A stretch of DNA of 64,000 nucleotides from a virus: the IMG/VR virus record IMGVR_UViG_3300008108_000039, positions 62,001 to 126,000 of that record. The stretch is one strand, 5' to 3'. A model generated the notes under the pieces. That model was not told the origin of the DNA. It did no database searches and saw nothing but the letters and a program-made list of their open reading frames with translations. Each line of letters begins with the position of its first letter. Positions within the stretch are counted from its first letter, which is position 1. Positions 1,358-63,035 of this stretch are shown piece after piece. The position numbers and the translations under genes were made by a program.

Positions 1358-1365
1358 ATAAATAT
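1358..1365 (-). promoter_or_regulatory. Candidate late promoter element ATATTTAT
   Basis: The coding strand reads ATATTTAT 15 bases ahead of the GIY-YIG gene start at 1342. It is one of about 20 same-orientation copies in this window; function is inferred from position only. Confidence 0.45.
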
Positions 1366-1387
1366 GTGGTGCTTGTAGAGAACAACA

Positions 1388-2023
1388 TTATTTCATGGGT
1401 GTTCCATTCATGTGGATAGCTGACATTAATTCTTCTCTAACAAGATTATCTTTTTCAAGAAAGACACCGCTGAATTTATTTGTGGTCATTGTAGAACCAT
1501 GCTTTATTCCCCTTGAACTACAGCATGTATGTTTACAAGCAATACTTACTGCTACTGATGGACAATCCATTTTAGTAGCTAAATAATCATGAATTTGTTG
1601 TGTTAATGATTCTTGCATTTGTGGTCTACGAGAAAACCATTCAACAATACGATTTAATTTACTTAAACCTATTACTTGTGCACCTGGTACATAGGCTAAT
1701 GTAGCATAACCTGTAAATGCAAGATTATGGTGTGCACACATACTAACAATAGGAATACCTGATTGAATTACTAATCCATTATATCCATCATCATTAGGGA
1801 ATACTGTAATATTTGGTTCGTCAGTAATACTACCTACAATTAAATCTTTAAGCCATGCTTTAGCTACACGACGAGGAGTATCTACTGTTTGTCTATCAGC
1901 TTCATAATCAAAACCAACGGCATTTAGGAATTGTCCATATGCTTCGGCAGCTTTATCAATCATTTGCTCAATTTGTTCTGGTGTACGAGCTAAATTACCA
2001 TTTGATTTTTTTAATAATTCCAT
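1388..2023 (-). CDS. folE: GTP cyclohydrolase I (first step to preQ0)
   Basis: This 211-residue protein matches GTP cyclohydrolase I, which converts GTP to dihydroneopterin triphosphate. The zinc ligands are present: C96 and H99 in CAHHN, and C167 in TCCSSRG (the family's CxxxRG). Other signatures are SKLNRIVEWFSRRPQMQE and TPRRVAKAW. Length equals that of bacterial FolE (about 190-220). The product feeds both folate and 7-deazaguanine synthesis. Because queE, queC, queD and a TGT-like gene follow within 6 kb on the same strand, supplying the preQ0 pathway is the likely role. No late-type motif precedes it, which fits early expression. Confidence 0.95.
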   Translation of the reverse strand: MELLKKSNGNLARTPEQIEQMIDKAAEAYGQFLNAVGFDYEADRQTVDTPRRVAKAWLKDLIVGSITDEPNITVFPNDDGYNGLVIQSGIPIVSMCAHHNLAFTGYATLAYVPGAQVIGLSKLNRIVEWFSRRPQMQESLTQQIHDYLATKMDCPSVAVSIACKHTCCSSRGIKHGSTMTTNKFSGVFLEKDNLVREELMSAIHMNGTPMK

Positions 2024-2039
2024 ATTATATTTTTAATGT

Positions 2040-2249
2040 TTATAATTCTTCCTCTGTCAACTCTATTAAATTCTCAGTATGTAATATAGCAGGTATTCCT
2101 GTTTCTATATTTTGACAATAAGAATGACCATCCATACCTTCTACCTCTCCAAAACAGGCAAATACAGCTCCTTCGAATGGATTTGGATTATTCTTTTTCC
2201 AATTATCGTCGAAAGAATCATAATCGTATTTAACAAGTTTTATTTTCAT
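2040..2249 (-). CDS. Small acidic protein of unknown function
   Basis: A 69-residue acidic protein that I do not recognise. It has an aromatic/Asp-rich start (YDYDSFDDNW) and a C-terminal ELTEEEL tail; no membrane segment or clear metal site is visible. Its start overlaps the 3' end of the upstream 52-residue gene by 20 bases, and folE follows 16 bases downstream, so it is translated as part of the folE-queE transcript. It sits among modification genes but there is no motif to link it to them. Confidence 0.65.
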   Translation of the reverse strand: MKIKLVKYDYDSFDDNWKKNNPNPFEGAVFACFGEVEGMDGHSYCQNIETGIPAILHTENLIELTEEEL

Positions 2250-2388
2250 ATTTATTCATTTGATTTACAACATCTTTAATACTCTTCACCCAAGCACCTA
2301 TAATATCTCTTCTCCAGTTCCAAATTGAGTTATGCGCATCCCAAATTTCTTTTGGTACTTCTACATATATGATTCTTTCCTTTTTCAT
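2230..2388 (-). CDS. 52-residue protein of unknown function
   Basis: A short reading frame from ATG at 2388 to TAA at 2230 fills what would otherwise be a 140-base gap. The product starts MKKERIIYVEVPKEIWDAH and has a Trp-rich middle (IWNWRRD) and a helical Lys/Val C-terminus. The ATG lies one base after the upstream gene's stop codon, and its own end overlaps the next gene, which is the packed arrangement used throughout this block. The composition is protein-like, not random. Function unknown. Confidence 0.6.
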   Translation of the reverse strand: MKKERIIYVEVPKEIWDAHNSIWNWRRDIIGAWVKSIKDVVNQMNKYENKTC

Positions 2389-2389
2389 A

Positions 2390-4795: not shown

Positions 4796-5107
4796 CTATA
4801 TTTGGTTTTGATTTAAATATTCTTCTATCTTTATTCCTTTTTCTTTCTCTTGATGATGGAAATCTCTATGACAATTGGAACAAAGAATAACACATTTATC
4901 TATTTCTTGTTTTATTCGTTTCCAACTATATCTAAAACCTTGGCTTATTTTAAAATTTTTTTCTTTAGGATCAATATGGTGAAAATCAAGTAAATGATTT
5001 TTATCTTCTCCACATTTTAAACACGACAATGAATTTTTAAAATCATTTATTTTTTCACGTTGTTGTTTTACATATGTCCTTCTATAGTTTTTTTTAACTT
5101 CTAACAT
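4796..5107 (-). CDS. HNH endonuclease (probable homing enzyme)
   Basis: The 103-residue protein carries a compact HNH nuclease with zinc-binding cysteines: CLKCGED (residues about 34-40), LLDFHHIDPKEKNF, then CVILCSNCHRDFHH. The paired CxxC motifs and the central DFHHID with CHRDFHH are the classic HNH core. It overlaps the queC 3' end by 14 bases, so it has inserted at the end of queC without breaking the gene. It may be a free-standing homing endonuclease; a role in the modification pathway is less likely. Confidence 0.85.
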   Translation of the reverse strand: MLEVKKNYRRTYVKQQREKINDFKNSLSCLKCGEDKNHLLDFHHIDPKEKNFKISQGFRYSWKRIKQEIDKCVILCSNCHRDFHHQEKEKGIKIEEYLNQNQI

Positions 5108-5978
5108 TGTTTAGTTTACTATGTTCAACTAAAACTTTTAAAACATGATCACGAGCCGTTTCCCAACTTACAGGTCCGTTTTCTAGATCTGCATATGCTA
5201 CAGGATCAGGACGTCCTAGTTTAATAAATGCTTCTATACGTTCTACAGATGCTGCTGATTTATAATCGGAATACCATGTACCTGATGTTACTATGTCTGC
5301 CCAAGCATGTTTAATGAAAATTGGTTTATAAGACGTATTGGTACGGCTATATACTTCATCAAAGTTTAAACCTAATTTTTCACAACATTTCAAACCATCT
5401 TCCAATATTTCAAATTTACTTCCTTCAAGATATGGAGTATAGAAACTAACTAATTCTGAATCCCAATTTCCGATTTTAAATGCTTCAAAATCAGCATCTC
5501 TAAATTCCTGTCTACAATCAGGGTATATGGCATGGTCACCAGCGTGAATACCTAATGCAATTTCTACTGGTTGTTTTTCACCTTTAGTTGCTAATGACAA
5601 TGCTACTGCTTGAATAATTGAACTAAATATCTTATTACGATTAGGAACAACAGTTTCTTTCATATTGTCCTGTTCGTAATGTCCTTCAGGAACATCTTGT
5701 CCACCTGTTACTAAAGCTGAATTTAGTAATTGCTGTAAACCATCTAGTTTGATAATCTGATGCTTAATTGGAGTAGTCCATTTATCTGAATGTTTAGCAA
5801 ATTCAGTTTGAATGTACTTAACTAATTCAGTAGCACGCTCTAATTCTACTTTATGTTTTTGTCCATAATCAAATGATAGAGCTGTTACTTCATAACCGTT
5901 TGCAAGTAGGTGTAATAATAATGAACTGCTATCCATACCACCTGATAGTGATAATACTGCTTTTTTATTTTGTGACAT
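5094..5978 (-). CDS. queC: preQ0 synthase (QueC-like), lacking zinc cysteines
   Basis: QueC converts 7-carboxy-7-deazaguanine plus ammonia and ATP to preQ0. The PP-loop is clear at SGGMDSS (residues 12-18), followed by ALSFDYGQKHKVELERA, then VVPNRNKIF and YPDCRQEFRDADFEAF, all QueC signatures. At 294 residues it exceeds bacterial QueC (about 220-230). The region that normally binds zinc (TxSCY...CGxCxxCxxR) reads TNTSY...SGTWYSDYKSAASVER, with no cysteine, so the structural zinc site is lost. Neighbours queE, queD and the TGT-like gene fix the pathway. The protein may act as a zinc-free QueC or have altered chemistry. Confidence 0.9.
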   Translation of the reverse strand: MSQNKKAVLSLSGGMDSSSLLLHLLANGYEVTALSFDYGQKHKVELERATELVKYIQTEFAKHSDKWTTPIKHQIIKLDGLQQLLNSALVTGGQDVPEGHYEQDNMKETVVPNRNKIFSSIIQAVALSLATKGEKQPVEIALGIHAGDHAIYPDCRQEFRDADFEAFKIGNWDSELVSFYTPYLEGSKFEILEDGLKCCEKLGLNFDEVYSRTNTSYKPIFIKHAWADIVTSGTWYSDYKSAASVERIEAFIKLGRPDPVAYADLENGPVSWETARDHVLKVLVEHSKLNNVRS

Positions 5979-6209: not shown

Positions 6210-7001
6210 TTATTTAATAAATGATTTAAACCTTTGTACATTAAAGATAATATCTTCTATTTTGTCTTCCAAATTTTTCTCAAAATAATATTCTAATTTA
6301 TGTTCCGGTTTGAAATTAATTCCACTATCATGATAACGAACACCTTCAGCTCCAACTAAAATAGGATTAGACGTATCTACTGATTTAATAAATGGCCAAT
6401 CTTTATAAGACATGAATTCTTGAGGTAATGAACATCCTAATAAATGATGATATATGTCTTTTCTTATAGTATTTTTTTCAACTAAGCGTCTAATAAGTTC
6501 CATTCTACCATACATTTGCTTTTTTAATTTAGGCATACTACTTTCATATTCTTTCTCATATGCTATACTAGAATGGTTAAAAGCAATATGAGTATATCCT
6601 AAGTCAACCAATGTTTGATAAGTTGTAATTAATTCTCCCATAGTTTTACCCTGGCATACAGCCATTAGATTTGTTTCTTTAGGTAAATATTGTTTGTAAT
6701 TAATTATCCAACTTTTAGCATTAACTAAAGTAGTAGTAGCATCATTCCAGGCATCAGGTACAATGAATATATTTGGTTTAATTAAATTAATTTTTTCTAA
6801 TAAATCTTCTATTGTGTGAGTTACTCCCTCAAATAGACCATTATCACAGATTATAAATGAACCTGGTTTTTCTCTATATTCTAACATATGAGTTTTATAT
6901 TGAGGGTATTGGTCTGTTAAATGAGGTAAAACATATTGATAATCATTCCATTCTAAACTTTCCTTTAAAAAACATAAAGATACTTCATGACTAACCTTCA
7001 T
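6210..7001 (-). CDS. dpdA: DpdA/TGT-like DNA guanine transglycosylase
   Basis: This 263-residue protein resembles the tRNA-guanine transglycosylase superfamily, whose DpdA members exchange guanine in DNA for a 7-deazaguanine base. The ordered features are CDNGLFEG (residues 52-59, like the DSGxFQ pocket), VPDAWND (81-87), VCQGKTMGEL then DLGYTHIAFNH (115-143, like the 'vQG...G.....gg' strand), HHLLGCS and a late SVDTS (207-211) that could hold the nucleophilic Asp. It is shorter than tRNA TGT (about 370-390) and no CxCxxC..H zinc site is visible. It overlaps queD by 11 bases, directly tying it to preQ0 synthesis. The family is strongly inferred; the exact DpdA subtype is not. Confidence 0.8.
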   Translation of the reverse strand: MKVSHEVSLCFLKESLEWNDYQYVLPHLTDQYPQYKTHMLEYREKPGSFIICDNGLFEGVTHTIEDLLEKINLIKPNIFIVPDAWNDATTTLVNAKSWIINYKQYLPKETNLMAVCQGKTMGELITTYQTLVDLGYTHIAFNHSSIAYEKEYESSMPKLKKQMYGRMELIRRLVEKNTIRKDIYHHLLGCSLPQEFMSYKDWPFIKSVDTSNPILVGAEGVRYHDSGINFKPEHKLEYYFEKNLEDKIEDIIFNVQRFKSFIK

Positions 7002-7455
7002 ATATAGCTGTATTTTTACTATGTTCCATAAATTCTACTCTTACAACTTTAACTCTACCACTAGTTTCTTCTTGAATAAATGTATTTAATTTATCATAAA
7101 TAAATTTAGCAAATTGTTCTGCTCCTACAGCTGGTATTATTCTTAATTGTATTATGCCTAGTTGATCCATTGTTTTAAATCCACCTAATCCTGGGTCATC
7201 TTCTGCTACAATTGTAGTATGATCAAACATATAATCCATCCATGCTTTAGGATTTTTACCATCAATAGTACCTTTAGCTCTTTTCATCCCTCCAAAATCC
7301 CAAACCCAGTTTCTTTCATCTAAATCACCTTCAAACCACACTCTAAATGATACTCCATATCCGTGGAGAAATTTACAATGAGTTCCTTCTGCTTTCCATT
7401 GGCGAAATACAGTACTATATCCATCAAACAATTTTGTTGATTGAAATTTTGGCAT
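6991..7455 (-). CDS. queD: 6-carboxytetrahydropterin synthase (QueD-like)
   Basis: QueD turns dihydroneopterin triphosphate into 6-carboxy-tetrahydropterin. The 154-residue protein has THCKFLHGYGVSF (residues 25-37) with the catalytic-type C27, WVWDFGGMK, MFDHTTIVAEDDP and PAVGAEQFAKFI, which follow the family order. The usual zinc motif HGH is HGY here, so at least one zinc ligand differs, and the earlier 'AAH' ligand is not evident. Phage QueD-like proteins of this shape exist, so this is likely a lineage feature. It overlaps the start of dpdA. Confidence 0.88.
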   Translation of the reverse strand: MPKFQSTKLFDGYSTVFRQWKAEGTHCKFLHGYGVSFRVWFEGDLDERNWVWDFGGMKRAKGTIDGKNPKAWMDYMFDHTTIVAEDDPGLGGFKTMDQLGIIQLRIIPAVGAEQFAKFIYDKLNTFIQEETSGRVKVVRVEFMEHSKNTAIYEG

Positions 7456-8317: not shown

Positions 8318-8905
8318 TCATTTATAATCCCATTTATAATTTTTATATTGTTCTCTTCTACCTTTACAGCATTGAATAATATATATTTCACTTAATTTTA
8401 AAGAACTAGATGCTTCTTTTATTGTGTTCCACTCTTTAATAACGTTTCCCTCTAAATCTTTTTGATATACTTGTTTATTATTTTTTCTATTCTGGTATGA
8501 TGGGTGGTTTTGTTTAGCTAATGATATTTTAAGATTATGTTCTGGTGTAAATTTTCTACCTTTTAACTTTTTATTTCTGTTTTTAATAGATTGTTCAGAC
8601 CATTTTATTCCTTTTGATCCACTTTCACCACCTTCACTTTTATTAACTAATATACCATTTTCTTCATATCCTACTCTACCATATAATTTAATATAGTATT
8701 GTTCTTTATTAGCAGCTTGTTCTAATGTTAGATCATTATGAACTAATTCAACAATAGGATTACCATGTTTTTTAACATAATTTATCCAATGTTTATTTCG
8801 TCCTCTGCCTTTATCCCATGCTCTTCTATCTAATCCTAATCCAACATAGAATATTTCTTTTGTTATTGGATTACGATGGAAGTAAATATAATATGTATTT
8901 ATCAT
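8318..8905 (-). CDS. GIY-YIG-type homing endonuclease
   Basis: 195 residues. The N-terminus has a variant GIY-YIG core, TYYIYFHRNP (residues 4-13) and IFYVGLGLDRRAW, followed by the helix with NKEQYYIKLYG that holds the catalytic-type Glu. The C-terminal part repeats the NUMOD-like theme QVYQKDLEGNVIKEWNTIKEAS. It is free-standing next to the reductase gene, with its own ATATTTAT element 24 bases upstream and the reductase terminator immediately beyond that. It is likely selfish and independently expressed. Confidence 0.85.
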   Translation of the reverse strand: MINTYYIYFHRNPITKEIFYVGLGLDRRAWDKGRGRNKHWINYVKKHGNPIVELVHNDLTLEQAANKEQYYIKLYGRVGYEENGILVNKSEGGESGSKGIKWSEQSIKNRNKKLKGRKFTPEHNLKISLAKQNHPSYQNRKNNKQVYQKDLEGNVIKEWNTIKEASSSLKLSEIYIIQCCKGRREQYKNYKWDYK

Positions 8906-8929: not shown

Positions 8930-8937
8930 ATAAATAT
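8930..8937 (-). promoter_or_regulatory. Candidate late promoter element ATATTTAT
   Basis: Lies 24 bases upstream of the GIY-YIG start at 8905 and directly downstream of the reductase terminator, which is where a new transcription start would be needed. Confidence 0.5.
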
Positions 8938-10835: not shown

Positions 10836-11096
10836 TTAAATAAGTGAATTAATAGTATCTACATATATAGATTTTGATTGTATCCCAGAAAAACGTTGTT
10901 TAGCAACTCCATCTTTGAAAAATATAACTGTTGGTACACTAGTTATCATATTATTTGATACTTCATTAGGAGATGCATCTACATCTATTGTTTCAAATTG
11001 TACATTTGGAAATAATCCTTCTAATTGTTCAAAAAGAGGAGCAAGCTGTTTGCATGGAGAGCACCAGCTCGCCGTAAATCTTTTAACCTTTATCAT
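10836..11096 (-). CDS. Thioredoxin
   Basis: A thioredoxin-fold disulfide reductase with FTASWCSPCKQLAPLFEQL, where WCSPC replaces the usual WCGPC, then 'IDVDASPNE' and SVPTVIFF with the conserved cis-Pro. I chose the ATG at 11096 (86 residues) over 11135 because the fold starts directly at MIKVKRF and because an ATATTTAT element falls inside the longer version, 19 bases before this start. It probably reduces the C-terminal cysteines of the class II reductase encoded just downstream. Confidence 0.88.
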   Translation of the reverse strand: MIKVKRFTASWCSPCKQLAPLFEQLEGLFPNVQFETIDVDASPNEVSNNMITSVPTVIFFKDGVAKQRFSGIQSKSIYVDTINSLI

Positions 11097-11115: not shown

Positions 11116-11123
11116 ATAAATAT
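11116..11123 (-). promoter_or_regulatory. Candidate late promoter element ATATTTAT
   Basis: 19 bases upstream of the thioredoxin ATG at 11096. It is the only copy ahead of a metabolic gene in the replication block, and it supports the shorter thioredoxin start. Confidence 0.4.
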
Positions 11124-14571: not shown

Positions 14572-15387
14572 TTATTCGTTAAATAGTGAGTCAAATTTAT
14601 CTGCAGCGTTTTCTTTAGGTTTGATATCTAAAGAATATGATTGAACAGGTGCATTTATTTCTTTAATAAAATCATCCTCTTCATCTTCATCTTTAGATAC
14701 AATAGGTGCTTCAGTTTCTTCCTCAGGATTTAACCATTTTTGTAATACATCTTTAAGCTGATCGTAAGAATATTTACGATTAATCGCTAAAATATCTGTT
14801 TGTTCTTCTAATGCTTTAGTAACAAAAGCAGCATCTTCAGAAATAGGAGTTGATTTTACTTTAGGACGTAAAGTACATTTAACACCTTTTCTTCCTGCTA
14901 TTACATCATCAATAGCTTCAACTGTAAAGTCTCTACCATCAGTAATGTTTGTAAAATCACCATAATCTTCATCAGCAGCAATACCCATTAACTGGTCATT
15001 TACCAATTTACCTACTTCCCACAAACGAACACCTTGTGATTCTTCTCCACGTACAACTACAGGAATAAAATAACGAACTTTAGGAGAAATTTTGTTTGCT
15101 AATGTCCAATCATCTTTATCAGAAGATTTACGTAATTTTTGGGTAAAATCAACAATTGGATCAGCTTCACCCCAATTAGTAAGAGCTAAAATAGGGCCTT
15201 TAGAAAAACCATAGTGCATTTGAACTTCACGCAATGGCCATTCTTTTCTGAATTTGTTAGGTACAATACGAATTTGGTATTTACCTGCTTTTGGTTTCCA
15301 GAAAATTTTTGAATAATCGATTTTTTCGCGCTTAGCGCCTTTGTTGGCATTGTCTGCCAGTTTTTGTTTGACAAATGATAAATCCAT
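14572..15387 (-). CDS. Single-stranded DNA-binding protein (gp32-like)
   Basis: 271 residues resembling T4 gp32 (301). The N-terminal basic helix leads to a core with KAGKYQIRIVPNKFRKEWPLRE and SPKVRYFIPVVVRGEESQGVRLWEVG patterns, typical of T4-like SSBs, and the C-terminus is acidic and ends near FDSLF. The zinc-binding Cys/His site of T4 gp32 is absent, as in some relatives. It should coat ssDNA and coordinate helicase, UvsX and nuclease. A host-like promoter (15412-15443) may drive it. Confidence 0.88.
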   Translation of the reverse strand: MDLSFVKQKLADNANKGAKREKIDYSKIFWKPKAGKYQIRIVPNKFRKEWPLREVQMHYGFSKGPILALTNWGEADPIVDFTQKLRKSSDKDDWTLANKISPKVRYFIPVVVRGEESQGVRLWEVGKLVNDQLMGIAADEDYGDFTNITDGRDFTVEAIDDVIAGRKGVKCTLRPKVKSTPISEDAAFVTKALEEQTDILAINRKYSYDQLKDVLQKWLNPEEETEAPIVSKDEDEEDDFIKEINAPVQSYSLDIKPKENAADKFDSLFNE

Positions 15388-15411
15388 AACTTTTGTTTTT
15401 ATGTTTAAAAT

Positions 15412-15443
15412 TAAATATACGATCTTTAAGATGAATAACCAAA
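15412..15443 (-). promoter_or_regulatory. Possible Bacteroidota-type promoter for SSB
   Basis: The minus strand has TTTG (15443-15440), then 20 bases, then TATATTTA (15419-15412). This resembles the -33 TTTG / -7 TAnnTTTG consensus of Bacteroidota with one mismatch. It lies 25 bases before the SSB start. Confidence 0.35.
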
Positions 15444-23815: not shown

Positions 23816-23823
23816 ATAAATAT
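23816..23823 (-). promoter_or_regulatory. Candidate late promoter element ATATTTAT
   Basis: 17 bases upstream of the start at 23798. The wider coding-strand context is CAAATATTTATACC. Confidence 0.5.
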
Positions 23824-25939: not shown

Positions 25940-25947
25940 ATAAATAT
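25940..25947 (-). promoter_or_regulatory. Candidate late promoter element ATATTTAT
   Basis: 21 bases upstream of the tape measure ATG at 25918. Confidence 0.5.
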
Positions 25948-43103: not shown

Positions 43104-43111
43104 ATAAATAT
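43104..43111 (-). promoter_or_regulatory. Candidate late promoter element ATATTTAT
   Basis: 57 bases upstream of the start at 43046. A perfect 12-base palindrome GCTTATATAAGC (43087-43098) lies between this element and the gene. Confidence 0.45.
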
Positions 43112-47401: not shown

Positions 47402-47409
47402 ATAAATAT
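47402..47409 (-). promoter_or_regulatory. Candidate late promoter element ATATTTAT
   Basis: 22 bases upstream of the gp13-like start at 47379, overlapping the upstream phoH-side spacer. Confidence 0.5.
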
Positions 47410-47411: not shown

Positions 47412-48080
47412 CTACTTTCCGTATTCGTATTCAAGTATTTTACCAACTAAATCGGATCTGTGGTTTTCTTTAAGCTTAACCCACTTAATTTCTTCGATTT
47501 TTTTAGATAATTCGATAACATAATTTAAGCCGTTTATTTCGCCCGTTTTGGAGTTGATATCGGTCTGTTCATTATCACCGTTAATAACAATTTTACCACT
47601 TTTTCCTAAACGAGTTAATATAGCTAACATTTCTCCTTTAGTAAGGTTTTGTGCTTCTTCTACTATTAGAATATCATCAATTGTTTTACCACGAATAAAT
47701 TGTACTGGTAGTGCTTTTATTTTACCTTCTTCTATTAAATTAGGTACTTCATTCTTATTGGTGCAACATTTATTAAGATTTTCAATAAGAGCTTCCATAT
47801 AAGGATCAAATTTTTCATTTAATGCTCCTGGAAGATATCCTAATGATTTACCCACTTCAATTGCTGCTCGTGTATTGTAAATACAATTTATTTGTTTTTT
47901 CTTTAAAAAATCTAGTGCAGCTTGAGCACATACTAATGATTTACCTGATCCTGCTCTACCTGTTATAACTACAATTTGGTTTTCTATTATTAATCGTTTT
48001 GCTTCTTTTTGTTCTTCATTTAATTGAATAGAACTAATAGCTTTAATATCATTTTTTCTTTCCCGGTTAGGTTCTTTCAT
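47412..48080 (-). CDS. phoH: PhoH-like P-loop ATPase
   Basis: 222 residues of the PhoH family: QIVVITGRAGSGKSLVCAQAA (Walker A), DDILIVEEAQNL (Walker B-like), INGDNEQTD (motif III) and HRSDLVGKI at the end. Many phages carry phoH; it is a predicted ATPase of unsettled role (RNA-related or phosphate-stress). It lies between the gp13-like gene and the capsid gene terminator, with its own late-type element 15 bases upstream. Function in infection remains unproven. Confidence 0.9.
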   Translation of the reverse strand: MKEPNRERKNDIKAISSIQLNEEQKEAKRLIIENQIVVITGRAGSGKSLVCAQAALDFLKKKQINCIYNTRAAIEVGKSLGYLPGALNEKFDPYMEALIENLNKCCTNKNEVPNLIEEGKIKALPVQFIRGKTIDDILIVEEAQNLTKGEMLAILTRLGKSGKIVINGDNEQTDINSKTGEINGLNYVIELSKKIEEIKWVKLKENHRSDLVGKILEYEYGK

Positions 48081-48095: not shown

Positions 48096-48103
48096 ATAAA
48101 TAT
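48096..48103 (-). promoter_or_regulatory. Candidate late promoter element ATATTTAT
   Basis: 15 bases upstream of phoH at 48080 and just after the capsid gene terminator, so it would restart transcription there. Confidence 0.5.
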
Positions 48104-49835: not shown

Positions 49836-50993
49836 TTATTTAATAATGTTTGCAAGTTTTTGCATACGAGTAATAACATCATTTGATTCAACTATTGTTG
49901 CCTTAGGAGCAACACCAGCAGCTTTAGAAGCAAATCCTAATGATTCTTTAATTTGAGTTTTCTTAGCACCAAAATTAGATTTTTCAATAGATTCAAATAA
50001 TTCTTTAGCTTGAGCCGGAGTAGTTGCTTTATCAAACGAAGCAATTACTTTTAATTTTTGTGATTCATTTAAATTTTTAGCTTTGAAGATTTTGTTAACA
50101 TAAAGCAACTTAGCATTTAATAAGTTTACTTCATTTAACTCATTACGAAGAGCATTGATAGTATCGATTGCTTCTTTCATTTCGTCTTTTTCTTCTTTTT
50201 CTTTTTTGTCTTTTTTCTTAGCTTCGTACATATCATCTTTATCATCGTCGTCAGCTTCGTCTAAAGCATCTAATTCAGCTAATAATTCTTCTAAATCAAC
50301 TTCTTCTTCATCACTTACACCTACTTCTTCACCAGCATCTCCCATATCTACACTCATTTCTTCTTCACCACCGCCCATTTCTAGTTCATCACCAGGAACT
50401 CCTAGTTCATCACCAGCATTAGCATCTAGTTCAGCAGAAATAACATCTTTGATAAGGTCTTTTAACTGATCAACTGTAAGGTCAGTAATTTTTTCATCTT
50501 CAGCTTCAACTTCTTCCTCGTCATCAGATTCTTCATCTTCTTCAGATTCTTCATCTTCATCTTCGGATTCGTCTTTAGCTTCTTTTACTTCTTTTTTTTC
50601 TTCGTCTTCATCTTTTTTCTTTTTAGCTTCGTCTAATGAATCTTCTTCATCTAATTCAGCTAAAATAGCAGATAAATCGAAATCTTCTTCAAGATCTTCA
50701 TCGCCTTCTCTTTTCATCATACCATTTACATCACCTTCTCCTGGATTTCCTTGTTCAACACTACCAAATCCTGTGTTTTGTTGTTCATCAGATGTATCGT
50801 AAGGTTGCATATAATCAATCTCTTCGATATCATCTTCTTCTAATTCCATTTCTTGCAATTTTGCAGAAATCATGGATTGTAGTTTTGGTGATAAGGCTTC
50901 TTCAAGAGCAGCTTTGGCATTTGCAAGAGCAGCTTCGCGTACTTGTTTAGCATCAGCGATGGCTTCTTTGAACAAATCTTTGTTTGTACTCAT
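49836..50993 (-). CDS. Prohead core scaffold (gp22-like), highly acidic
   Basis: 385 residues with long runs of Glu/Asp/Lys (EDEDEESEEDEESDDEEEVE region near residues 140-165) and helical N- and C-terminal parts. In order and composition it matches the T4 gp22 scaffold, directly upstream of the capsid gene. It starts with an AAGGAGA Shine-Dalgarno, rare here, fitting very high expression. The C-terminus ends RMQKLANIIK, one of four late genes with this motif. It is expected to be degraded by the protease before DNA packaging. Confidence 0.78.
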   Translation of the reverse strand: MSTNKDLFKEAIADAKQVREAALANAKAALEEALSPKLQSMISAKLQEMELEEDDIEEIDYMQPYDTSDEQQNTGFGSVEQGNPGEGDVNGMMKREGDEDLEEDFDLSAILAELDEEDSLDEAKKKKDEDEEKKEVKEAKDESEDEDEESEEDEESDDEEEVEAEDEKITDLTVDQLKDLIKDVISAELDANAGDELGVPGDELEMGGGEEEMSVDMGDAGEEVGVSDEEEVDLEELLAELDALDEADDDDKDDMYEAKKKDKKEKEEKDEMKEAIDTINALRNELNEVNLLNAKLLYVNKIFKAKNLNESQKLKVIASFDKATTPAQAKELFESIEKSNFGAKKTQIKESLGFASKAAGVAPKATIVESNDVITRMQKLANIIK

Positions 50994-51144
50994 TTTGTTT
51001 TTCTCCTTAAATTTTTTGTGGAAGTAAGCTTATTAGATCAAGCTTAATAGTGGGTTTATAAATACCAAGCTACCATAAATGTAAGTGGGTAGCTATTATA
51101 GGATATCCATAAATATATGCAAAAATTAAAAACCGCAAAAAACA
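50994..51144 (-). promoter_or_regulatory. Structured 5' leader of the scaffold/capsid transcript
   Basis: This 151-base gap holds an ATATTTAT element at 51109-51116, then an inverted repeat AGCTACC/GGTAGCT (51068-51094, 13-base loop) and a second TAAGCTT/AAGCTTA (51025-51046, 8-base loop), then AAGGAGA before the ATG at 50993. It is the longest untranslated leader in the window and may stabilise the abundant capsid mRNA. Confidence 0.5.
51109..51116 (-). promoter_or_regulatory. Candidate late promoter element ATATTTAT
   Basis: 115 bases ahead of the scaffold start at 50993. Its surroundings (TTTTTGCATATATTTAT) match the element at 26975 over 17 bases. Confidence 0.5.
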
Positions 51145-53388: not shown

Positions 53389-54246
53389 CTATTTTACTGC
53401 TTTTAACTCATTAATTAATTGGTGAAACTGTAAAAGAGAAACAATATTCTCATCTTTTACATTTTGATTTTTATCTAAAGGTTGCAATAATGTAACTACC
53501 TCAGCTAATTTAATTTGAGTAGTTTTATCTGTTACAGTTTGAGCTAAATTATTTAAAGTTTTTTTAATTAAATTAAATTGCTCATTAACAAATTCTTTTA
53601 GTTTAGTAGTATTAGACACATTATTAATATATTCTTTCAATATTAATTTTTGAACATTAGATAAAACAGTATATTTTTCATTAAATTTTTCTAACATTAT
53701 TTTATAAGCTAAAATGCGGGTACCAGTGTCCATTTTACTATATTCTTCTAATACACGATCTTTAACACCTTCAACATTAACTTCTTTACGAGTAATATGT
53801 TCTAGTAATGTTATCTTATTATCTATAATTTGAGAAGGTTCAATAAATTCTAATGATCCATGTGCTTCAATTAAATTAGATACAGCAGCATATTGTGAAT
53901 AGTTATTAATTTTTGCTTTAAAGAATACCTCAATATCGTAACTATTGCGAATTTCTTTAATCAAATTATATTTTTCTTTGCGTAAAGCCGTTTTATTTAA
54001 ACGTGAAGATATTTCAAGTATTGATGTAATTAATAATTCTGCTTTACCTTCAGTTAATGCCTTGCTGGTTATAACAGCTTGGTATAATTTATGTTCTTTT
54101 GCTAGTTCAGTTTTATTAAAATATTTTTTAACAATGTTAATTGCTGCAGAATCTTTACCAGATACTGTATCAGATGCAATCTGTCTAACTAAAAGTTCAA
54201 ATAAAATACCAGTGTTTTTGTACTTTGAATGTTTTATTTTATTCAT
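53389..54246 (-). CDS. Conserved head-cluster protein, function unknown
   Basis: 285 residues, almost entirely helical. It starts HSKYKNTGILFELLVRQIASD and continues DSAAINIVKKYFNKTELAKEH, a pattern I recall from T4-like phage head modules. The body holds HITRKEVNVEGVKDRVLEEY and a helical C-terminus. A late-type element lies 25 bases upstream. It is between portal and protease genes, so it is likely a prohead component; the function is not known. Confidence 0.68.
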   Translation of the reverse strand: MNKIKHSKYKNTGILFELLVRQIASDTVSGKDSAAINIVKKYFNKTELAKEHKLYQAVITSKALTEGKAELLITSILEISSRLNKTALRKEKYNLIKEIRNSYDIEVFFKAKINNYSQYAAVSNLIEAHGSLEFIEPSQIIDNKITLLEHITRKEVNVEGVKDRVLEEYSKMDTGTRILAYKIMLEKFNEKYTVLSNVQKLILKEYINNVSNTTKLKEFVNEQFNLIKKTLNNLAQTVTDKTTQIKLAEVVTLLQPLDKNQNVKDENIVSLLQFHQLINELKAVK

Positions 54247-54271: not shown

Positions 54272-54279
54272 ATAAATAT
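54272..54279 (-). promoter_or_regulatory. Candidate late promoter element ATATTTAT
   Basis: 25 bases upstream of the head-cluster gene start at 54246, in the portal-side spacer. Confidence 0.5.
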
Positions 54280-54287: not shown

Positions 54288-56171
54288 CTATAGTCCTTTA
54301 ATATTATTTTCATTAAGTAGTGATGGTTCTTGATCAGGTCCAAATACAATTTCTTTTCTCATTTCTTTAGGTATAGAACCTAATGAATTTTTTATTTTAT
54401 AAGATTCAGCTATTGCTATTGGTGACCCACCTTTTGGTGTTCCTTCACCAGTTTCATTAGGAGTGGATAAAGTATTATTACCAATTCTACCAGTTCTATC
54501 TTTACCTAATGGATCTTCTTGTGTATTAATAATAGATGCTTTTTCTTGAGGACGACCAATTGGACGTTTTTCATCATATCCACCAGGTACTTCTCCATTT
54601 TGTCCCATTCTACCTTTACCATATAATGATGCTAAATCGTGTGGTGTACCATATGATTTACCTGTTCTAGCAGGATCATTACCCTCATTTTCAATTTGAC
54701 CTAATCTAAAGGCACGCATTTTATCTTGAATTACTAAATCACGGTATTCATCGTATTGATCTTCACTAAATTGGAATACATTATCATATATCCAATCTGA
54801 TGGGAGTAAATTTGTATCTTGAATATTTTTTGCTAAATCAACCTTTTCTTTCCATAATGCTACTTTTTCTTGTTCAAATATAATTGAAGAATTAGTTAAT
54901 TGTAATTCAAAATTAGTTAAAGAAGCACCATCATATCCTTGAACATATAAATGCACTAAAGCAATTTTATATAATTCAGATAACATAATGCGTTGAATGC
55001 GTTCAACGGTACGAGCAAAGCGAATATCTTCAGCAGCTAATGTAGCTTTACCTTCAAGATCTTTTTCAAATCCAAAAAATGCTTTAGGTACTTTTAATGC
55101 TGCTAACATTTCATCACGTAAAAAGTTAACATCATCTATAGCTTGATATTCTAATCCTTTTAATGTATCAATTTTAGTTGTACTATCATTACCACGAGTA
55201 GGTAAATAATAATCCTCCATCATATTCATTAGGTTATACTTTAAATTGTATTCACCTGTTTGATTATCTACATAAGGAGTTTTTTTCATTTTTTGCATTA
55301 ACTTCTGCATATACCCATCAACTTCATTAGCGGGTATATTACCTACATTAACTGTAAATACACGTTTTTCTGGGGCGCGTACAATACGATGCAATAACAT
55401 TGCATCTTTCATTAGTACATATTGTTTATATGTTTTACGAGCAGGTTCAATATATGATCTACCATAAGGTAAATAATTAGCATCTGTTATTAATCTAAAG
55501 TGAGCTATTTCATAATTTTCAAATGTAATTCTACCTTCTCTATCTGCTAAACGTGTACTTACACCACCAGATGCTATTACTGATGGGTTAATTTTAAATG
55601 TTACTGAAGAAGGGTTATTAGGATCTTGACCTTCTTCACGTACCATATCATAAACGGATAATGGTGTTACACTATATACTCCAAATTTTTCTGCAATTTC
55701 TAAATGTAAATAAAAATCTCCATATTTACACATATTGCGAGTCCAAACCCAAAGATTAAATTCAATATTTAAAATATCATAAAATAAATTGTATAATATT
55801 CGTTGTATATTTTCATCTGAACTTTTAATTTGTAATACTTCTCCTACTTCATTTTTTAAAGTAGATTCATCTGCTATAATATCTAAAGTAGAAGCAATAA
55901 TTGACTCAGTATCCATAGCTTCATAATCAGTATATAACTGAAGACGAAGTGTTTGATAATTCATTGTAGGATTATATGGCATATTAGCGCCATAACGATG
56001 TAATTTAGTAAATCTATCAATTAAAGCATTTGTTTTAACATTGCCATAAGATTGAATGTTGTCTACATCTACAGTTTTTAATTGTTTACCTCCAACATTT
56101 CTTATAATAACATCTGTGTTAAATAAGCGAGATAATCTATCAAATAAACCGCTATTATTTTGTTCGGCCAT
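54288..56171 (-). CDS. Portal vertex protein (gp20-like)
   Basis: 627 residues (T4 gp20 has 524). The core is well conserved: YEAMDTESIIASTLDIIADE, LFYDILNIEFNLWVWTRNMCKYGDFY, APEKRVFTVNVGNIPANEVD and KVPKAFFGFEKDLEGKATLA with a following 'EDIRFARTVERIQRIMLSEL' helix. It makes the dodecameric channel for DNA. The C-terminal extension is Gly/Pro-rich and not conserved. The terminase gene precedes it with a 32-base gap. Confidence 0.95.
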   Translation of the reverse strand: MAEQNNSGLFDRLSRLFNTDVIIRNVGGKQLKTVDVDNIQSYGNVKTNALIDRFTKLHRYGANMPYNPTMNYQTLRLQLYTDYEAMDTESIIASTLDIIADESTLKNEVGEVLQIKSSDENIQRILYNLFYDILNIEFNLWVWTRNMCKYGDFYLHLEIAEKFGVYSVTPLSVYDMVREEGQDPNNPSSVTFKINPSVIASGGVSTRLADREGRITFENYEIAHFRLITDANYLPYGRSYIEPARKTYKQYVLMKDAMLLHRIVRAPEKRVFTVNVGNIPANEVDGYMQKLMQKMKKTPYVDNQTGEYNLKYNLMNMMEDYYLPTRGNDSTTKIDTLKGLEYQAIDDVNFLRDEMLAALKVPKAFFGFEKDLEGKATLAAEDIRFARTVERIQRIMLSELYKIALVHLYVQGYDGASLTNFELQLTNSSIIFEQEKVALWKEKVDLAKNIQDTNLLPSDWIYDNVFQFSEDQYDEYRDLVIQDKMRAFRLGQIENEGNDPARTGKSYGTPHDLASLYGKGRMGQNGEVPGGYDEKRPIGRPQEKASIINTQEDPLGKDRTGRIGNNTLSTPNETGEGTPKGGSPIAIAESYKIKNSLGSIPKEMRKEIVFGPDQEPSLLNENNIKGL

Positions 56172-56191: not shown

Positions 56192-56199
56192 ATAAATAT
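56192..56199 (-). promoter_or_regulatory. Candidate late promoter element ATATTTAT
   Basis: 20 bases upstream of the portal start at 56171. Confidence 0.5.
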
Positions 56200-56203: not shown

Positions 56204-57790
56204 TTATCCTATTACCCATGTTAAATCTTCAATGTTGCCATTTCCTAAATCCATTTTATAAGGATTGTTAAAATTTGTAGGACCCGGCATTATTACTGCT
56301 GAAGTTTTAGTTATATTATTTATATTTTGACGAGTCATATTCATTCCTTGTTCATAAAATTTCATTGCTGTATCACGAGTAAATAATCCTATTCCTAATG
56401 ACATTACTAAATCATCGTTATATCCATTTTGTGCTTGTGGTTTACCATTCATCCAAATAAATACTCTTAATTCTTCTAATAATCGTTTTGAGTGAAAAAT
56501 AAATTGTCTGTCTCTAATATACGCTTCTGTTTTGGAGACAACAAGAGGTCTTGTTTTAGCGGACATAGTAAAGCCAGGAACTGTTTGCTCAGAATCCATT
56601 TTAGCCATCCATTTATCTATATGCATTTCTCCATAGACACGAGGTGAATAATATAAATTAGGATATTGTTTTTCTATAATAGTGTTTATAACATCCCATC
56701 CTACACTTGCATTTTCAACTACAAGTAAAGCATTATTATATTCAGTAGCAACAGATACCAACATATTTCCATAAGTACGAGTATCAACTTGTGATTTATA
56801 TTCAGCAACTTGTTCACACGTTGTTGCATCAATAATATGAAACGCTGAATAGTCCGAACCATCACCGCGAGCCACGTCAGCGCAAACCAAATACTGCTTA
56901 TTATAATCAGGATACTGCCAAATCCAAAAATCGCCACCCATAAAACGACGTTCAATAGGATCTTGTATAAATGTTTGTTCATAAAAAGATAATGTGTCTG
57001 ATTCAATAACAGAATTTCCAGAACCTAAAAAGTCACAGTCATACTCTTGAGCAAATTCTCGAGGAGACATGTTTGATCTTTCTGTTTTTTCCCATTCTTC
57101 ATCTCTATCAGGATGTAAATTCCAAGGCAATCTAATTGCTTTAAAACCTTTACCTTCACCAGTTCCTGATTCAGCAGATGTATACATTTTATGAAACCAA
57201 TTACCAATTCCATTAGGAGAAGATAATGCAATAATTCCTCCCCCTGTTGCAATTGTAGGTTTAATACTTGTATAAATTTTATCAATTCCTTCAATAAAAG
57301 CAGCCTCATCTACTAATAGTAAAGATACAGCATAGGATCTACCTGCATCTGATGCTGCTGATGTTGCAATTATTTGAGAATTATTAGCTAACTTTAAAGA
57401 TAATTTATTATCTGATAATGGTTTTTCTTTACCTTTTAACCAAGAAGGTAAATTATTGTACATAAATTGTACTTTATCTACCATCCCTTTAGCTGTTTCT
57501 TGTTTTGTTGCAATACAAAGTATAGTTTTATCTTTATTAAACAACATTGTCCATAAAGAAAATCCTGCAACTAAAGTAGATATACCTAATTGGCGTGATT
57601 TATTAATAATAGAAAAACGATTATTTCTAAAATCATTTAATACTTCTTCCTGGAATGGGTATAAATGGAATAATATTCTTCCTTTTTGAGGGTGTGAAAT
57701 GTAGCAATATTTGCGAAAGAAATGAACAGGATCCATGGCGCATTTGATATATTCCTGTTTGATTATTTCTTTAATATTAGTTTGTGTCAT
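56204..57790 (-). CDS. Terminase large subunit (gp17-like)
   Basis: 528 residues of the packaging motor (T4 gp17 has 610). ATPase motifs: NKSRQLGIST in the Walker A position (the usual late Lys is Ile, and a Lys lies early, as in deviant terminase motifs), LLLVDEAAFIE as Walker B, and IALSSPNG as the coupling motif. The nuclease domain shows LVCADVARGDGSDYSAF, VVENASVGW and NGYNDDLVMS with the metal-binding Asp residues. The start at 57790 leaves almost no leader; sequence conservation near EYIKCAMDPVHFF argues against a later start. No small terminase is recognised in the window. Confidence 0.95.
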   Translation of the reverse strand: MTQTNIKEIIKQEYIKCAMDPVHFFRKYCYISHPQKGRILFHLYPFQEEVLNDFRNNRFSIINKSRQLGISTLVAGFSLWTMLFNKDKTILCIATKQETAKGMVDKVQFMYNNLPSWLKGKEKPLSDNKLSLKLANNSQIIATSAASDAGRSYAVSLLLVDEAAFIEGIDKIYTSIKPTIATGGGIIALSSPNGIGNWFHKMYTSAESGTGEGKGFKAIRLPWNLHPDRDEEWEKTERSNMSPREFAQEYDCDFLGSGNSVIESDTLSFYEQTFIQDPIERRFMGGDFWIWQYPDYNKQYLVCADVARGDGSDYSAFHIIDATTCEQVAEYKSQVDTRTYGNMLVSVATEYNNALLVVENASVGWDVINTIIEKQYPNLYYSPRVYGEMHIDKWMAKMDSEQTVPGFTMSAKTRPLVVSKTEAYIRDRQFIFHSKRLLEELRVFIWMNGKPQAQNGYNDDLVMSLGIGLFTRDTAMKFYEQGMNMTRQNINNITKTSAVIMPGPTNFNNPYKMDLGNGNIEDLTWVIG

Positions 57791-57794: not shown

Positions 57795-57802
57795 ATAAAT
57801 AT
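57795..57802 (-). promoter_or_regulatory. Candidate late promoter element ATATTTAT abutting the terminase start
   Basis: Only 4 bases separate it from the terminase ATG at 57790, so transcription from it would give a leaderless mRNA. It follows the terminator's T run directly. Confidence 0.4.
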
Positions 57803-58475: not shown

Positions 58476-59438
58476 TTATTTTATAATACCGGCATAGTAT
58501 TGTAATTTATTTAATGTCCATTCATCTAAAGGTTCTTCTGTTTCTTCTTCAGGAGCAGCAGTTGGTGGTTCTGGTATTTCAACACCTGCTAATTTTTTAA
58601 CATAATCACTACTAGCAACCAAGCTATTAATACGTTGTTCTAATGATGTTCTTAAAGCACGTAAACGCTGTAATTCTTCAGACGGTTTGTCTTTAATGTC
58701 ACCTGCAGTGGCTTTTGATCTTTTTAATTTTAAAATATTAGATTTAGTAGCATTTAAACGGCGTTCTAATTCTCTATATTGTGTAGCTGCTTTATAATCT
58801 TCATTAGATGCCTTTGAAGAAATAGGTTCTACTTTTTCAAGTTCATCTTCACCAGGTTCAACAAGATCCTCAGAACCATCAGCATTTGGTTCACCATCAA
58901 AATACATTGCTAATGGATTTTCTGTACTACCCATAAACATATCTTCAGGTTCAGTAGCCTGACTAGGTGCTTCTTCACCAGGTTCTGGTATAGCTTCTAC
59001 TTCACCACCTGCTCCTAATCTTACTACTACTCCAGCATCTAATAATCCATTTATAACAGCATTAGCTATTTGTGGGCGAACAAAATTAAATTGTGTTTGA
59101 ATATCCTTTTTCTCAGCCCCAGGATTTTCACGAATATAATTAATAATATCAGCTAATGATACTCCACTAATACGTTTATTAGTATAAGGTTCAGTATTAA
59201 TATTATTATCAGTTAGTCTATATCCTTTAGCTGTGCGAGCCATTTCTTCAATTTCTCCTTCAGCAACTTCTGCTCTACCAGAAGATATATCGTTTTTCTT
59301 AGATTGAAGTGCTTTTATTCTAGCATCTATTGCTTTTTTTTCAGCATCTTCAGCTGCTTTTTCAATAGAAGATTCTGATTCTAATAATACTTCTTTTATA
59401 GCTTCGCGTATAATTTTACGTAATTCTTTACTTTTCAT
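58476..59438 (-). CDS. Late protein with winged-helix domain and CTS-like N-terminus
   Basis: 320 residues from ATG 59438 (MKSKELRKIIREAIKEVLLE), chosen because the ATATTTAT element at 59466 then lies 27 bases upstream, like other genes; an ATG at 59465 would leave no leader. The middle, LADIINYIRENPGAEKKDIQ with FNFVRPQIANAVINGLLDAG, reads as a winged helix-turn-helix. The end is acidic and then WTLNKLQYYAGIIK. It may be a packaged DNA-binding protein or packaging factor. Identity with small terminase is not supported. Confidence 0.6.
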   Translation of the reverse strand: MKSKELRKIIREAIKEVLLESESSIEKAAEDAEKKAIDARIKALQSKKNDISSGRAEVAEGEIEEMARTAKGYRLTDNNINTEPYTNKRISGVSLADIINYIRENPGAEKKDIQTQFNFVRPQIANAVINGLLDAGVVVRLGAGGEVEAIPEPGEEAPSQATEPEDMFMGSTENPLAMYFDGEPNADGSEDLVEPGEDELEKVEPISSKASNEDYKAATQYRELERRLNATKSNILKLKRSKATAGDIKDKPSEELQRLRALRTSLEQRINSLVASSDYVKKLAGVEIPEPPTAAPEEETEEPLDEWTLNKLQYYAGIIK

Positions 59439-59465: not shown

Positions 59466-59473
59466 ATAAATAT
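59466..59473 (-). promoter_or_regulatory. Candidate late promoter element ATATTTAT
   Basis: 27 bases upstream of the chosen start at 59438; it overlaps the stop codon region of the upstream kinase gene. Confidence 0.45.
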
Positions 59474-61830: not shown

Positions 61831-61874
61831 ATTATATAAAAATAATTTAATTTTTTTGATTTTCCAAATATAAG

Positions 61875-61899
61875 GTGGCCCACCTTTTGGGTGGGCCAC
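61875..61899 (-). terminator. Intrinsic terminator-like hairpin
   Basis: A perfect 10-bp GC-rich stem (GTGGCCCACC / GGTGGGCCAC) with a 5-base loop lies 61 bases after the stop at 61960. The following minus-strand bases CTTATATTTGG are only weakly T-rich, so termination may be partial. Confidence 0.7.
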
Positions 61900-61959
61900 T
61901 ACTCCAATTTATTTTTTAGGCGAACAGGCAATGAATCTGTTCTATATGTTTATTTCATA

Positions 61960-62553
61960 TTAATCTCCAGTATATTTTGCTCCACTTGGAACATCATATC
62001 CACCACCAGGACCAAAACGACTTTGCCATGCTTGTTTATCAATTTCTTTTTCTTTTGGAGTTCTTTTATCTGCAGGAAATTCTTTTGTAGGTTCTAATTT
62101 AATTGTATTTCCATCAATTAATATATCTGCAATTGGATCTTTTAAATCTAAATAATCAATTGTAGTATTTTCGTCTTTTAAAGTAATAGTACCAGACATT
62201 GTATTAATTTTCTGAATAGGTTTACCTTGTACAGTTACTGTTTGTCCTGCTTTTAAAGCAGCATCTACTTTTCTCATTACTTGAGTATCATTTATTTCGT
62301 TTATAACTGATTTAGTTGAAATACCAGCTAATTGTTGCATTCTTTTAATTTCATCCATTGTTTGTTGATTTTTAATAATACTGTCGTATTGATTCATTGT
62401 TAATGTTTTTCCAGTTTTACTTAACTCTAAAATATTTTCAGCTACTGTATGTAAATCCATATCAGTTTTTGCATCTTCACGAGCATATTCTAGTAAACGA
62501 ATAAATAAAGGTACGTCTACTGTAATTTTATCTGTAGGGTTAAATTGTATCAT
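61960..62553 (-). CDS. Late protein with LAGI motif, function unknown
   Basis: 197 residues. The N-terminal half has VDVPLFIRLLEYAREDAKTD and MDLHTVAENILELSK, a compact helical domain found in several marine phage proteins, from memory. Then EIKRMQQLAGISTKSVINEI, one of four copies of the motif in this window, and a beta-rich, Pro/Lys-rich tail. It overlaps the 161-residue gene by four bases. A late-type element lies 12 bases upstream. Confidence 0.66.
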   Translation of the reverse strand: MIQFNPTDKITVDVPLFIRLLEYAREDAKTDMDLHTVAENILELSKTGKTLTMNQYDSIIKNQQTMDEIKRMQQLAGISTKSVINEINDTQVMRKVDAALKAGQTVTVQGKPIQKINTMSGTITLKDENTTIDYLDLKDPIADILIDGNTIKLEPTKEFPADKRTPKEKEIDKQAWQSRFGPGGGYDVPSGAKYTGD

Positions 62554-63035
62554 TGGTTGTTTTCAATAAATATCCACTTAGGTGTATTTCCTAATTTTTT
62601 CCAATTTAATCCTTTAATAGCAATTTTATCTTTTACATAAAAATTACGATATGCTTTAATAGTATCACCCATTTTATATTCATCAGGCATACATTGTGGT
62701 GGAGGTATAAATTCTTTATTGGGAAGATTGGGTTCATTGTCACGAAGCCATGTAAGAACTTCTTGAGTTTTATGAGGTTTACCATAACGTTTAGTAAATT
62801 CTTTACAAATTTCTAAACCATGTTGTACAAGCCAGCGGTAATGTTGTATAGATTCACGTACCCATTTAGTAGATGGGTGATTAACGTGAGCACGCTTATA
62901 AGGTGCTTGTGAACCTGATTCCCAATGTGCTGTTGAGCACATTTGAGCGGATTCAATTTGCATTTTACGAATATGATCGTCTGCTAGTTGTTGGGCGGCT
63001 GATATTGGGTCAGCGCAAATATAAAATATATTCAT
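62550..63035 (-). CDS. Conserved phage protein of unknown function
   Basis: 161 residues with a recognisable pattern: DPISAAQQLADDHIRKMQIES, QMCSTAHWESGS, HVNHPSTKWVRES, HYRWLVQHGLEICKEFTKRYGKPHKT and CMPDEYK...AYRNFYVKDK. Proteins of this pattern are widespread in T4-like marine phages without a known role, from memory. The conserved His, Asp and Trp positions suggest an enzyme. I rejected a T4 DenV-type glycosylase as there is no shared motif order. Confidence 0.72.
   Translation of the reverse strand: MNIFYICADPISAAQQLADDHIRKMQIESAQMCSTAHWESGSQAPYKRAHVNHPSTKWVRESIQHYRWLVQHGLEICKEFTKRYGKPHKTQEVLTWLRDNEPNLPNKEFIPPPQCMPDEYKMGDTIKAYRNFYVKDKIAIKGLNWKKLGNTPKWIFIENNQ
62566..62573 (-). promoter_or_regulatory. 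Candidate late promoter element ATATTTAT
   Basis: 12 bases upstream of the start at 62553, inside the end of the preceding gene's coding sequence. Confidence 0.35.

Follow-up and report, generated by a model that had tools for sequence, protein, structure and literature searches.

A strand-specific element ahead of virion genes in T4-like phages as a putative late promoter, with a candidate phage sigma factor

Results

The window analysed here is a 64,000-nucleotide stretch of viral DNA, bases 62001-126000 of the 167,479-base record IMGVR_UViG_3300008108_000039; the remaining DNA of the record was analysed as well. A simple gene caller found 204 genes in the record, all 204 on the minus strand, and the window carries T4-like capsid, portal, terminase and sheath genes. 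Such a one-strand layout over 167 kilobases (kb) is a contrast to T4. The subject of this work is a short element, represented by the octamer ATATTTAT, which stands on the coding strand ahead of genes for the terminase, the portal, a PhoH-like protein, a head-tail adaptor, the tail sheath, the tail tube, a baseplate hub, HNH and GIY-YIG endonucleases and thioredoxin. The designation of the element as late-type follows from the predicted functions of the genes that it leads.

An initial annotation of the window had listed 20 positions of the octamer on the coding strand, and all 20 were confirmed. It had placed about 14 of them 12-27 bases ahead of a start codon; the range held, and with our own start calls the count became 15, the remaining five lying 42, 48, 57, 58 and 115 nucleotides (nt) from the next called start, although the longest open reading frames at 57795 and 59466 would begin nearer the element. 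One of the 20 (62566) falls within a called gene. The window contains five additional coding-strand copies (16082, 16208, 19402, 22473 and 35165), four of them entirely intragenic. Because the two strands together carry only slightly more copies than chance would give (33 compared to a mean of 23.96, with a standard deviation of 4.77, among shuffled sequences, 4 of 100 of which reach 33), we dropped this total as evidence; the signal resides in strand and placement rather than in the raw count. When copies with at most 4 of the 8 bases in genes were taken as noncoding, the 4,002 noncoding bases of the window were found to hold 20 copies in the coding orientation and 2 in the opposite one, and the noncoding DNA of the whole record 47 and 4, so that the equal frequency in both orientations which, according to the initial annotation, would speak against its proposal was not observed. 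Across the record, no octamer is more over-represented than ATATTTAT in the 50 nt ahead of starts (31 copies compared to 2.5 expected from a second-order Markov model built on that DNA), and its reverse complement occurs there 3 times against an expectation of 3.6.

The distribution of the element among gene classes is uneven. Considering leading gaps of at least 20 nt, the late-type element ([ACG]TATTTAT, within 75 nt) is present in 15 of the 20 gaps in the virion region and in 4 of the 18 elsewhere in the window (Fisher p = 0.0015); the limits of the virion region, 16216-58470, were set from the annotation with the sites already known, and the region includes genes whose function is unknown. 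No late-type element was detected in the window ahead of the preQ0, helicase, UvsX or SSB (single-stranded DNA-binding protein) genes, in agreement with the earlier claim that the element leads virion genes and thioredoxin and not these genes. An expectation-maximization motif search placed a site in 55 of the 94 gaps of at least 25 nt in the record, with two promoter-like classes, described below, pooled.

The element is conserved in related phages. Three IMG/VR protein searches, the capsid search among them, gave at least 600 matches each. Among 79 loci chosen by the window capsid protein, TATTTAT is the top heptamer (312 copies compared to 39.8 expected, in 77 of the 79 contigs), and ATAAATA is near background (43 compared to 33.2, 25 contigs). 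The loci chosen by the candidate sigma factor introduced below give a similar picture, both for those of the window type (TATTTAT 300 compared to 53.9, 80 of 80 contigs; ATAAATA 75 compared to 60.6, 36 contigs) and for those resembling the cultured phage immuto (TATTTAT 274 compared to 57.7, 111 of 113 contigs; ATAAATA 153 compared to 102.8, 76 contigs). In both the window-type set and the capsid set, which have a few contigs in common, ATATTTAT is the top octamer. The 269 non-duplicate late sites of the capsid loci yield the consensus [A/C]TATTTATA, with A (0.67) or C (0.30) as the preceding base and A (0.72) as the following base; the A that follows TTT is fixed by the search pattern. At these sites, there is no sign of a −33 box: an upstream TTG occurs at 40 of 269 compared to 43 of 269 at the control position.

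The late promoter of T4 has the consensus TATAAATA. The initial annotation had read the element as the T4 late promoter core reversed, and this claim did not survive the comparison: when TATTTATA is set beside TATAAATA in one and the same direction, 6 of the 8 positions are identical and only the central AA is replaced, by TT, and the element stands in the coding orientation, in most cases with 12-27 nt between it and the start. An exchange of AA for TT mimics a reverse complement here, since TAT..ATA forms an inverted repeat with itself. As a control, the same counting on the plus-strand genes of T4 (75-125 kb) recovered TATAAATA as the top octamer (7 compared to 0.7 expected). In the record, TATAAATA shows no enrichment (23 copies, 4 of them noncoding), and it is TATTTATA that takes the place of the T4 octamer. 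The further suggestion that late genes are recognized in a lineage-specific manner is supported, with the element as a putative promoter, and a search elsewhere in the genome for the gp55-like sigma gene that the initial annotation had proposed to look for led to a candidate.

This candidate is a 321-amino-acid protein encoded outside the window, at 162881-163846 on the minus strand (locus L006:18881-19846), which was found by gene order and is 38% identical to gp118 of immuto, annotated as hypothetical. The phrog_234 family, of which T4 gp55 is a member, matches immuto gp118 at E 0.008 in a genome search, and hhalign comparison of the candidate sigma family with a gp55 alignment gave 77.6% (E 1.9e-5, 99 columns). 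Sigma70_r2 (PF04542) is the commonest Pfam match in the family, with 12 of 24 members and a best E of 8.6e-5 at a limit of E 10, the window phage's own protein not being among them. The likeness of its region 2 to gp55 therefore runs via relatives, because the window record has no direct profile match. Taken with the modelling described in the Discussion, these profile matches make a predicted sigma region 2 in the candidate family well supported. The protein of the record also contains an in-frame insertion of about 62 residues in the loop between two region-2 helices, common to 3 of the 23 other aligned members (L156, L173 and L174); a closer relative (L146, 81% identical) lacks the insertion, so its distribution is patchy.

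Homologues of the candidate sigma occur in more distant phages. In Mel-JY01, recorded from Microcystis, the homologue is 36.4% identical over 96% of immuto gp118 (E 1e-34), and ATATTTAT occurs 17 times compared to 1.5 expected, with 0 copies of the reverse complement compared to 1.9 (117 of 190 kb); a locus search with the Mel-JY01 sigma found no relatives. We set aside the profile E-values of Mel-JY01 and of the uncultured phage LR756508 because both sequences are rows of the query alignment. Rhodothermus phage RM378 encodes a distant homologue, Rm378p020 (NC_004735 17032-17826; profile E 8.4e-11), annotated as hypothetical, and contains 19 copies of TTATTTAA compared to 1.1 expected (100 of 130 kb); among its annotated genes at 80-130 kb, 17 of 55 have TATTTA[AT] within 60 nt, compared to 7 for the reverse complement. 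The annotated sigma factor of RM378, p144, was rejected as a relative of the family (hhalign 0.6%). In cyanophage loci with a classic gp55, ATAAATA is the enriched form (40 compared to 9.4, 19 of 80 contigs) and TATTTAT is not (1 compared to 4.4).

A second class of promoter-like sequences is apparent beside the late-type element. The Bacteroidota sigma-A promoter has a −33 TTG. Of 127 TATTTA[AG] sites in immuto-type loci, 110 follow a TA and 103 have an upstream TTG (control 30). In immuto itself (NC_055915), the full early form AGTTG..TATATTTAGGTAT lies mostly within a region of small genes at 60-77 kb, whereas the TATTTAT sites are mostly outside this region, many beside structural genes. 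A long repeated early leader, AGTTG..TATATTTAGGTATCAATAATTAAAAC, stands ahead of many of the small genes at 60-77 kb. The patterns suggest two promoter-like classes, one host-like and one with a −10 element only, which are separated less cleanly in the window genome. There, inspection by eye revealed GTCAAA(A) or GGCAAA(A) at about −18 upstream of TACATTTAT or TATATTTAA at approximately 0.4-23 kb, 66-70 kb, 125 kb and 166.7 kb of the record; this class is also a consensus in window-type relatives and could represent early or middle promoters with their own activator.

The individual sites, all on the minus strand, run through the window as follows. The ATATTTAT element at 1358-1365 lies 15 nt before a GIY-YIG homing endonuclease gene (554-1342), and the late-type elements at 8930-8937 and 11116-11123 lie, respectively, 24 nt before gene 8318-8905, which has a weak NUMOD1 match under the Pfam cut-off, and 19 nt before the thioredoxin gene (10836-11096). 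The gp32-like SSB gene (14572-15387) has, in place of a late-type element, a host-like or early-type one at 15411-15418, namely TATATTTAA with, by eye, a TTTG box 20 nt upstream. Late-type elements then precede gene 23559-23798 (element 23816-23823, 17 nt), gene 23831-25918 (25940-25947, 21 nt), the baseplate hub-like gene 26213-26953 (26975-26982), an HNH/homing endonuclease gene at 26992-27747 (27770-27777, 22 nt), the tail tube gene 27837-28322 (28348-28355, 25 nt), the tail sheath gene 28372-30132 (30175-30182, 42 nt) and gene 31163-31525 (31551-31558, 25 nt). The elements at 26975-26982 and 31551-31558 have the form TATATTTAT with TTTG 20 nt upstream, as if they were hybrid host and phage promoters. 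Further along, elements are found before gene 34964-35530 (35579-35586, 48 nt), the tail-fibre-like gene 41073-43046 (43104-43111, 57 nt), the head-tail adaptor-like gene 46225-47379 (47402-47409, 22 nt) and the PhoH-like gene 47412-48080 (48096-48103, 15 nt). In the spacer that separates the head protease gene from gene 49836-50993, an element at 51109-51116 lies 115 nt ahead of the called start of the latter; the major capsid gene (48174-49805) follows. The remaining elements precede gene 53389-54246 (54272-54279, 25 nt), the portal gene 54288-56171 (56192-56199, 20 nt), the terminase large subunit gene 56204-57736 (57795-57802, 58 nt before the called start, the longest open reading frame running from 57790) and gene 58476-59438 (59466-59473, 27 nt before the called start, the longest open reading frame running from 59465). 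The promoter role is least certain for the copy of ATATTTAT at 62566-62573, which is within the called gene 62550-62963 and 12 nt before gene 61960-62553.

Among other features, the window contains preQ0 pathway genes at 1388-2023, 5094-5978 and 6991-7455, for GTP cyclohydrolase I, QueC and a QueD-like protein, and the QueD-like gene shares 76.6% identity with Cellulophaga phage phiST over 372 bases. A 3.1-kb stretch of the record, at about 23.6-26.7 kb, has no called genes.

Discussion

We consider it likely that the element is a sigma-dependent late promoter consisting of a −10 element only, a variant of the T4 system rather than its mirror image, and that its reader is a phage sigma factor. 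Under this model, the predicted late promoter, with the consensus [A/C]TATTTATA, would be read toward the downstream gene by the host RNA polymerase carrying the phage sigma, most likely the 321-amino-acid protein at 162881-163846, with a region 2 that appears to resemble that of T4 gp55. Early genes would depend on promoters of another kind, with a host-like pair, AGTTG 20 nt before TATATTTAG, in immuto-type relatives and, in the window genome, as judged by eye, a TTTG or GTCAAAA box ahead of TATATTTAA or TACATTTAT. It is the co-occurrence of the candidate sigma with the element, together with the analogy to T4, that suggests a link between the two.

In the account of Geiduschek and Kassavetis (2010), as far as its sections on promoter structure go, the T4 late promoter is an 8-bp −10 element with an AT-rich downstream region and no conserved −35 site (PMC2988020). 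The system described here resembles that of T4 (TATAAATA, gp55/gp33/gp45) in the 8-bp −10 element without a −35 site and with AT-rich DNA downstream, in its placement before virion genes, in the presence, in this phage group, of a protein with a gp55-like region 2, and in the T4-like structural and packaging genes of the window. It differs in the center of the element, which is AA in T4 and TT here, in the C-terminal helical extension of the candidate sigma, which has no clear structural match, and in that no T4-type clamp was found with PF02916 and phrog_223. The cyanophages (Kyanoviridae) are likewise T4-like phages with gp55 homologues, but the gp55 loci are enriched in ATAAATA, not TATTTAT. 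Phage Aeh1 is a documented case of departure from the late consensus of the T4 family, although there the change reported in the same review is at −13/−12 (PMC2988020), whereas here it affects the center.

Several observations weigh against this interpretation. On the side of the sigma factor, neither phrog_234 nor Sigma70_r2 has a match in the record itself, and Sigma70_r2 has none in immuto. In a scan of the whole PHROG library, immuto gp118 matched phrog_234 only at E 0.5, behind two families without known function; of 19 members of the sigma family, 7 matched phrog_234 at E 1 or below, the best at 0.026. The AlphaFold2 model is that of a relative of the window protein, with a predicted local distance difference test score (pLDDT) of 75.4 and a predicted template-modelling score (pTM) of 0.46. 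With this model, Foldseek by itself found nothing below E 0.001, and a search of solved structures with the sigma alignment found nothing up to E 10. VIA-align, which re-aligns the top 682 chains of Foldseek itself, did favour a sigma region 2 fold: it ranked T4 gp55 (7d7c_F) third, with Z 9.2 over 127 residues at a root-mean-square deviation (rmsd) of 8.0, and sigma-S (6omf_F) fifth, with Z 9.0 over 94 residues at 2.7 Å; according to the notes of the tool, however, a Z below about 13 may, for helical bundles, mean a common arrangement only. Fifty of the VIA-align rows are sigma factors or RNA polymerase complexes, as judged by title and not chain by chain; we take RPSH, RPSB and RPSD in these rows to be UniProt names of sigma factors. 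On the side of the element, TATTTATA is also enriched in T4 (6 compared to 0.6 on both strands; 2 compared to 0.5 on plus-strand genes), and in RM378 the reverse complements are over-represented as well (TTAAATA 11 compared to 2.1, TAAATA 17 compared to 5.0). Among uncultured phages, LR756508, with a homologue 40.5% identical over 97%, has only 4 copies of TATTTAT compared to 0.98 expected (100 of 484 kb), and LR756511, with a homologue at E 1.5e-8, shows no TATTTAT enrichment (50 of 595 kb). The contigs of the capsid set were chosen by the capsid protein, whether or not they encode the candidate sigma. Finally, an upstream TTG is found at 12 of the 35 late-type sites in the window genome (control 5) and at 34 of 185 in window-type loci (control 20), an excess which implies that some late-type sites may also serve the host sigma.

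Indeed, the element could be conceived as a slightly degenerate −7 box of the host housekeeping sigma, in which case a phage sigma would be unnecessary. The Flavobacterium sigma-A box is given as TAnnTTTG at −12 to −5 in the portion of PMC9723704 that deals with it, and TATATTTAT resembles its TAnnTTT; moreover, 17 of the 35 sites in the window genome are preceded by TA, in addition to the 12 with an upstream TTG. We considered the host box first as the whole explanation and downgraded it on the leaders of Mel-JY01 and the counts at the capsid loci. There, only 53 of the 269 late elements are preceded by TA, 81 have C where the host box requires A, and TTG is at the control level (40 compared to 43), so that, unlike the early promoters of immuto-type relatives with TATATTTAG, which fit the Bacteroidota sigma-A promoter (TA at 110 and TTG at 103 of 127 TATTTA[AG] sites), these elements have no −33 box and, for the most part, no leading TA. 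Furthermore, the element is found in Mel-JY01, which has an excess of Shine-Dalgarno-like leaders (52 of 140, control 14) foreign to Bacteroidota. On balance, we regard the host box as an unlikely explanation of the whole pattern. The same leaders bear on the idea that the element acts at the RNA level, as a signal for translation initiation or another function of the 5' leader, perhaps in hosts that do not use Shine-Dalgarno sequences. Its closeness to start codons, and the lack of a clear excess of Shine-Dalgarno leaders in the window (13 of 80, control 9), are what such a signal would predict. However, the spacing between element and start varies (interquartile range 15-25 nt in the record and 16-23 nt at the capsid loci), 35 of the 36 listed genes led by a late-type element come after a gap of at least 20 nt, and Mel-JY01 has the element together with Shine-Dalgarno-like leaders, which makes a role in translation quite improbable. 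Flavobacteria are described as lacking Shine-Dalgarno leaders in the passages of PMC9723704 on translation. No excess of such leaders was observed in immuto (10 of 220, control 42), in window-type (103 of 1445, control 213) or immuto-type loci (166 of 1701, control 335), in the capsid loci (144 of 1122, control 161) or in the cyanophage loci (193 of 1025, control 181); given that the cyanophage loci are equally without an excess, we rejected the missing leaders as proof of a Bacteroidota host.

Two further explanations appear still less probable. One is the literal mirror of the T4 promoter, whereby polymerase would read the opposite strand or the element would be a site of antisense transcription: ATATTTATA does include the reverse complement of TATAAATA, but all 204 called genes are on one strand, with the element ahead of their starts, and the same-direction match at 6 of 8 positions makes the flip unnecessary, so we give this possibility hardly any weight. 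The other, and the least credible of all, is an artefact of base composition, such that AT-rich spacers yield AT-rich octamers. The mildly raised total on both strands (33 compared to 24) would be in line with it, but it is refuted by the bias of orientation in noncoding DNA (47 compared to 4) and by the composition-matched excess upstream of starts (31 compared to 2.5), and ATATTTAT is the top octamer in the window-type and capsid relatives too.

Going beyond the late promoter read by a phage sigma, one can envisage a more specific scenario that we put forward as speculative and rather doubtful. Under this scenario, a large T4-like lineage would employ a single sigma chain, in which a gp55-like region 2 is joined to a C-terminal domain that may stand in for gp33, the mimic of sigma-4; this chain would read TATTTATA with no need of a T4-type sliding clamp, and the promoter code would have co-evolved with it across phages of hosts as distinct as Flavobacterium, Rhodothermus and Microcystis. 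The C-terminal part of the candidate sigma is a conserved helical domain of about 90 residues which, modelled alone, reached a pLDDT of 85.7 and looks, by eye, like a helix-turn-helix. No bacterial sigma chain was recovered for this domain by Foldseek (16 matches, best E 3.3) or VIA (55 chains); its best VIA match is a chain of the signal recognition particle (Z 5.3), and a chain of a TFIIB complex (4bbr_M) had Z 3.4. Searches with PF02916 and phrog_223 detected the clamp of T4 itself and found no sliding clamp in the record, in immuto or in Mel-JY01, although a very divergent clamp could escape them; since Mel-JY01 has annotated clamp-loader genes, a divergent clamp is conceivable. The DNA polymerase of the record matches phrog_262, and those of immuto and Mel-JY01 are annotated as family A and family B, respectively. 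As far as the relevant part of their review extends, Geiduschek and Kassavetis (2010) state that a fused late sigma has not been found and ask why (PMC2988020). If the scenario is true, the single-chain sigma would be the fused late sigma that they called unfound.

Taken together, the sequence patterns portray a large group of T4-like phages, one member of which infects Flavobacterium, that looks as if it marks its virion genes with an apparent start signal, TATTTATA. Among the papers listed in searches of the open PMC literature, judged by titles and the beginnings of abstracts, we found no prior report of the element or of the candidate sigma. For a phage lineage that is abundant and mostly uncultured, judging by the yield of the three protein searches, the analysis offers a candidate sigma gene together with a candidate transcription code, in which late genes have TATTTATA and early genes, in immuto-type relatives, TTG and TATATTTAG. 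The cultured pair of immuto and Flavobacterium sp. LMO8 makes both the code and the sigma testable. Should the assignment hold, gp55 with TATAAATA and the candidate sigma with TATTTATA would constitute a natural experiment on the reading of the −10 center by sigma region 2, and would reopen the question raised in the 2010 review, namely why T4 splits its late sigma and couples it to the replication clamp.

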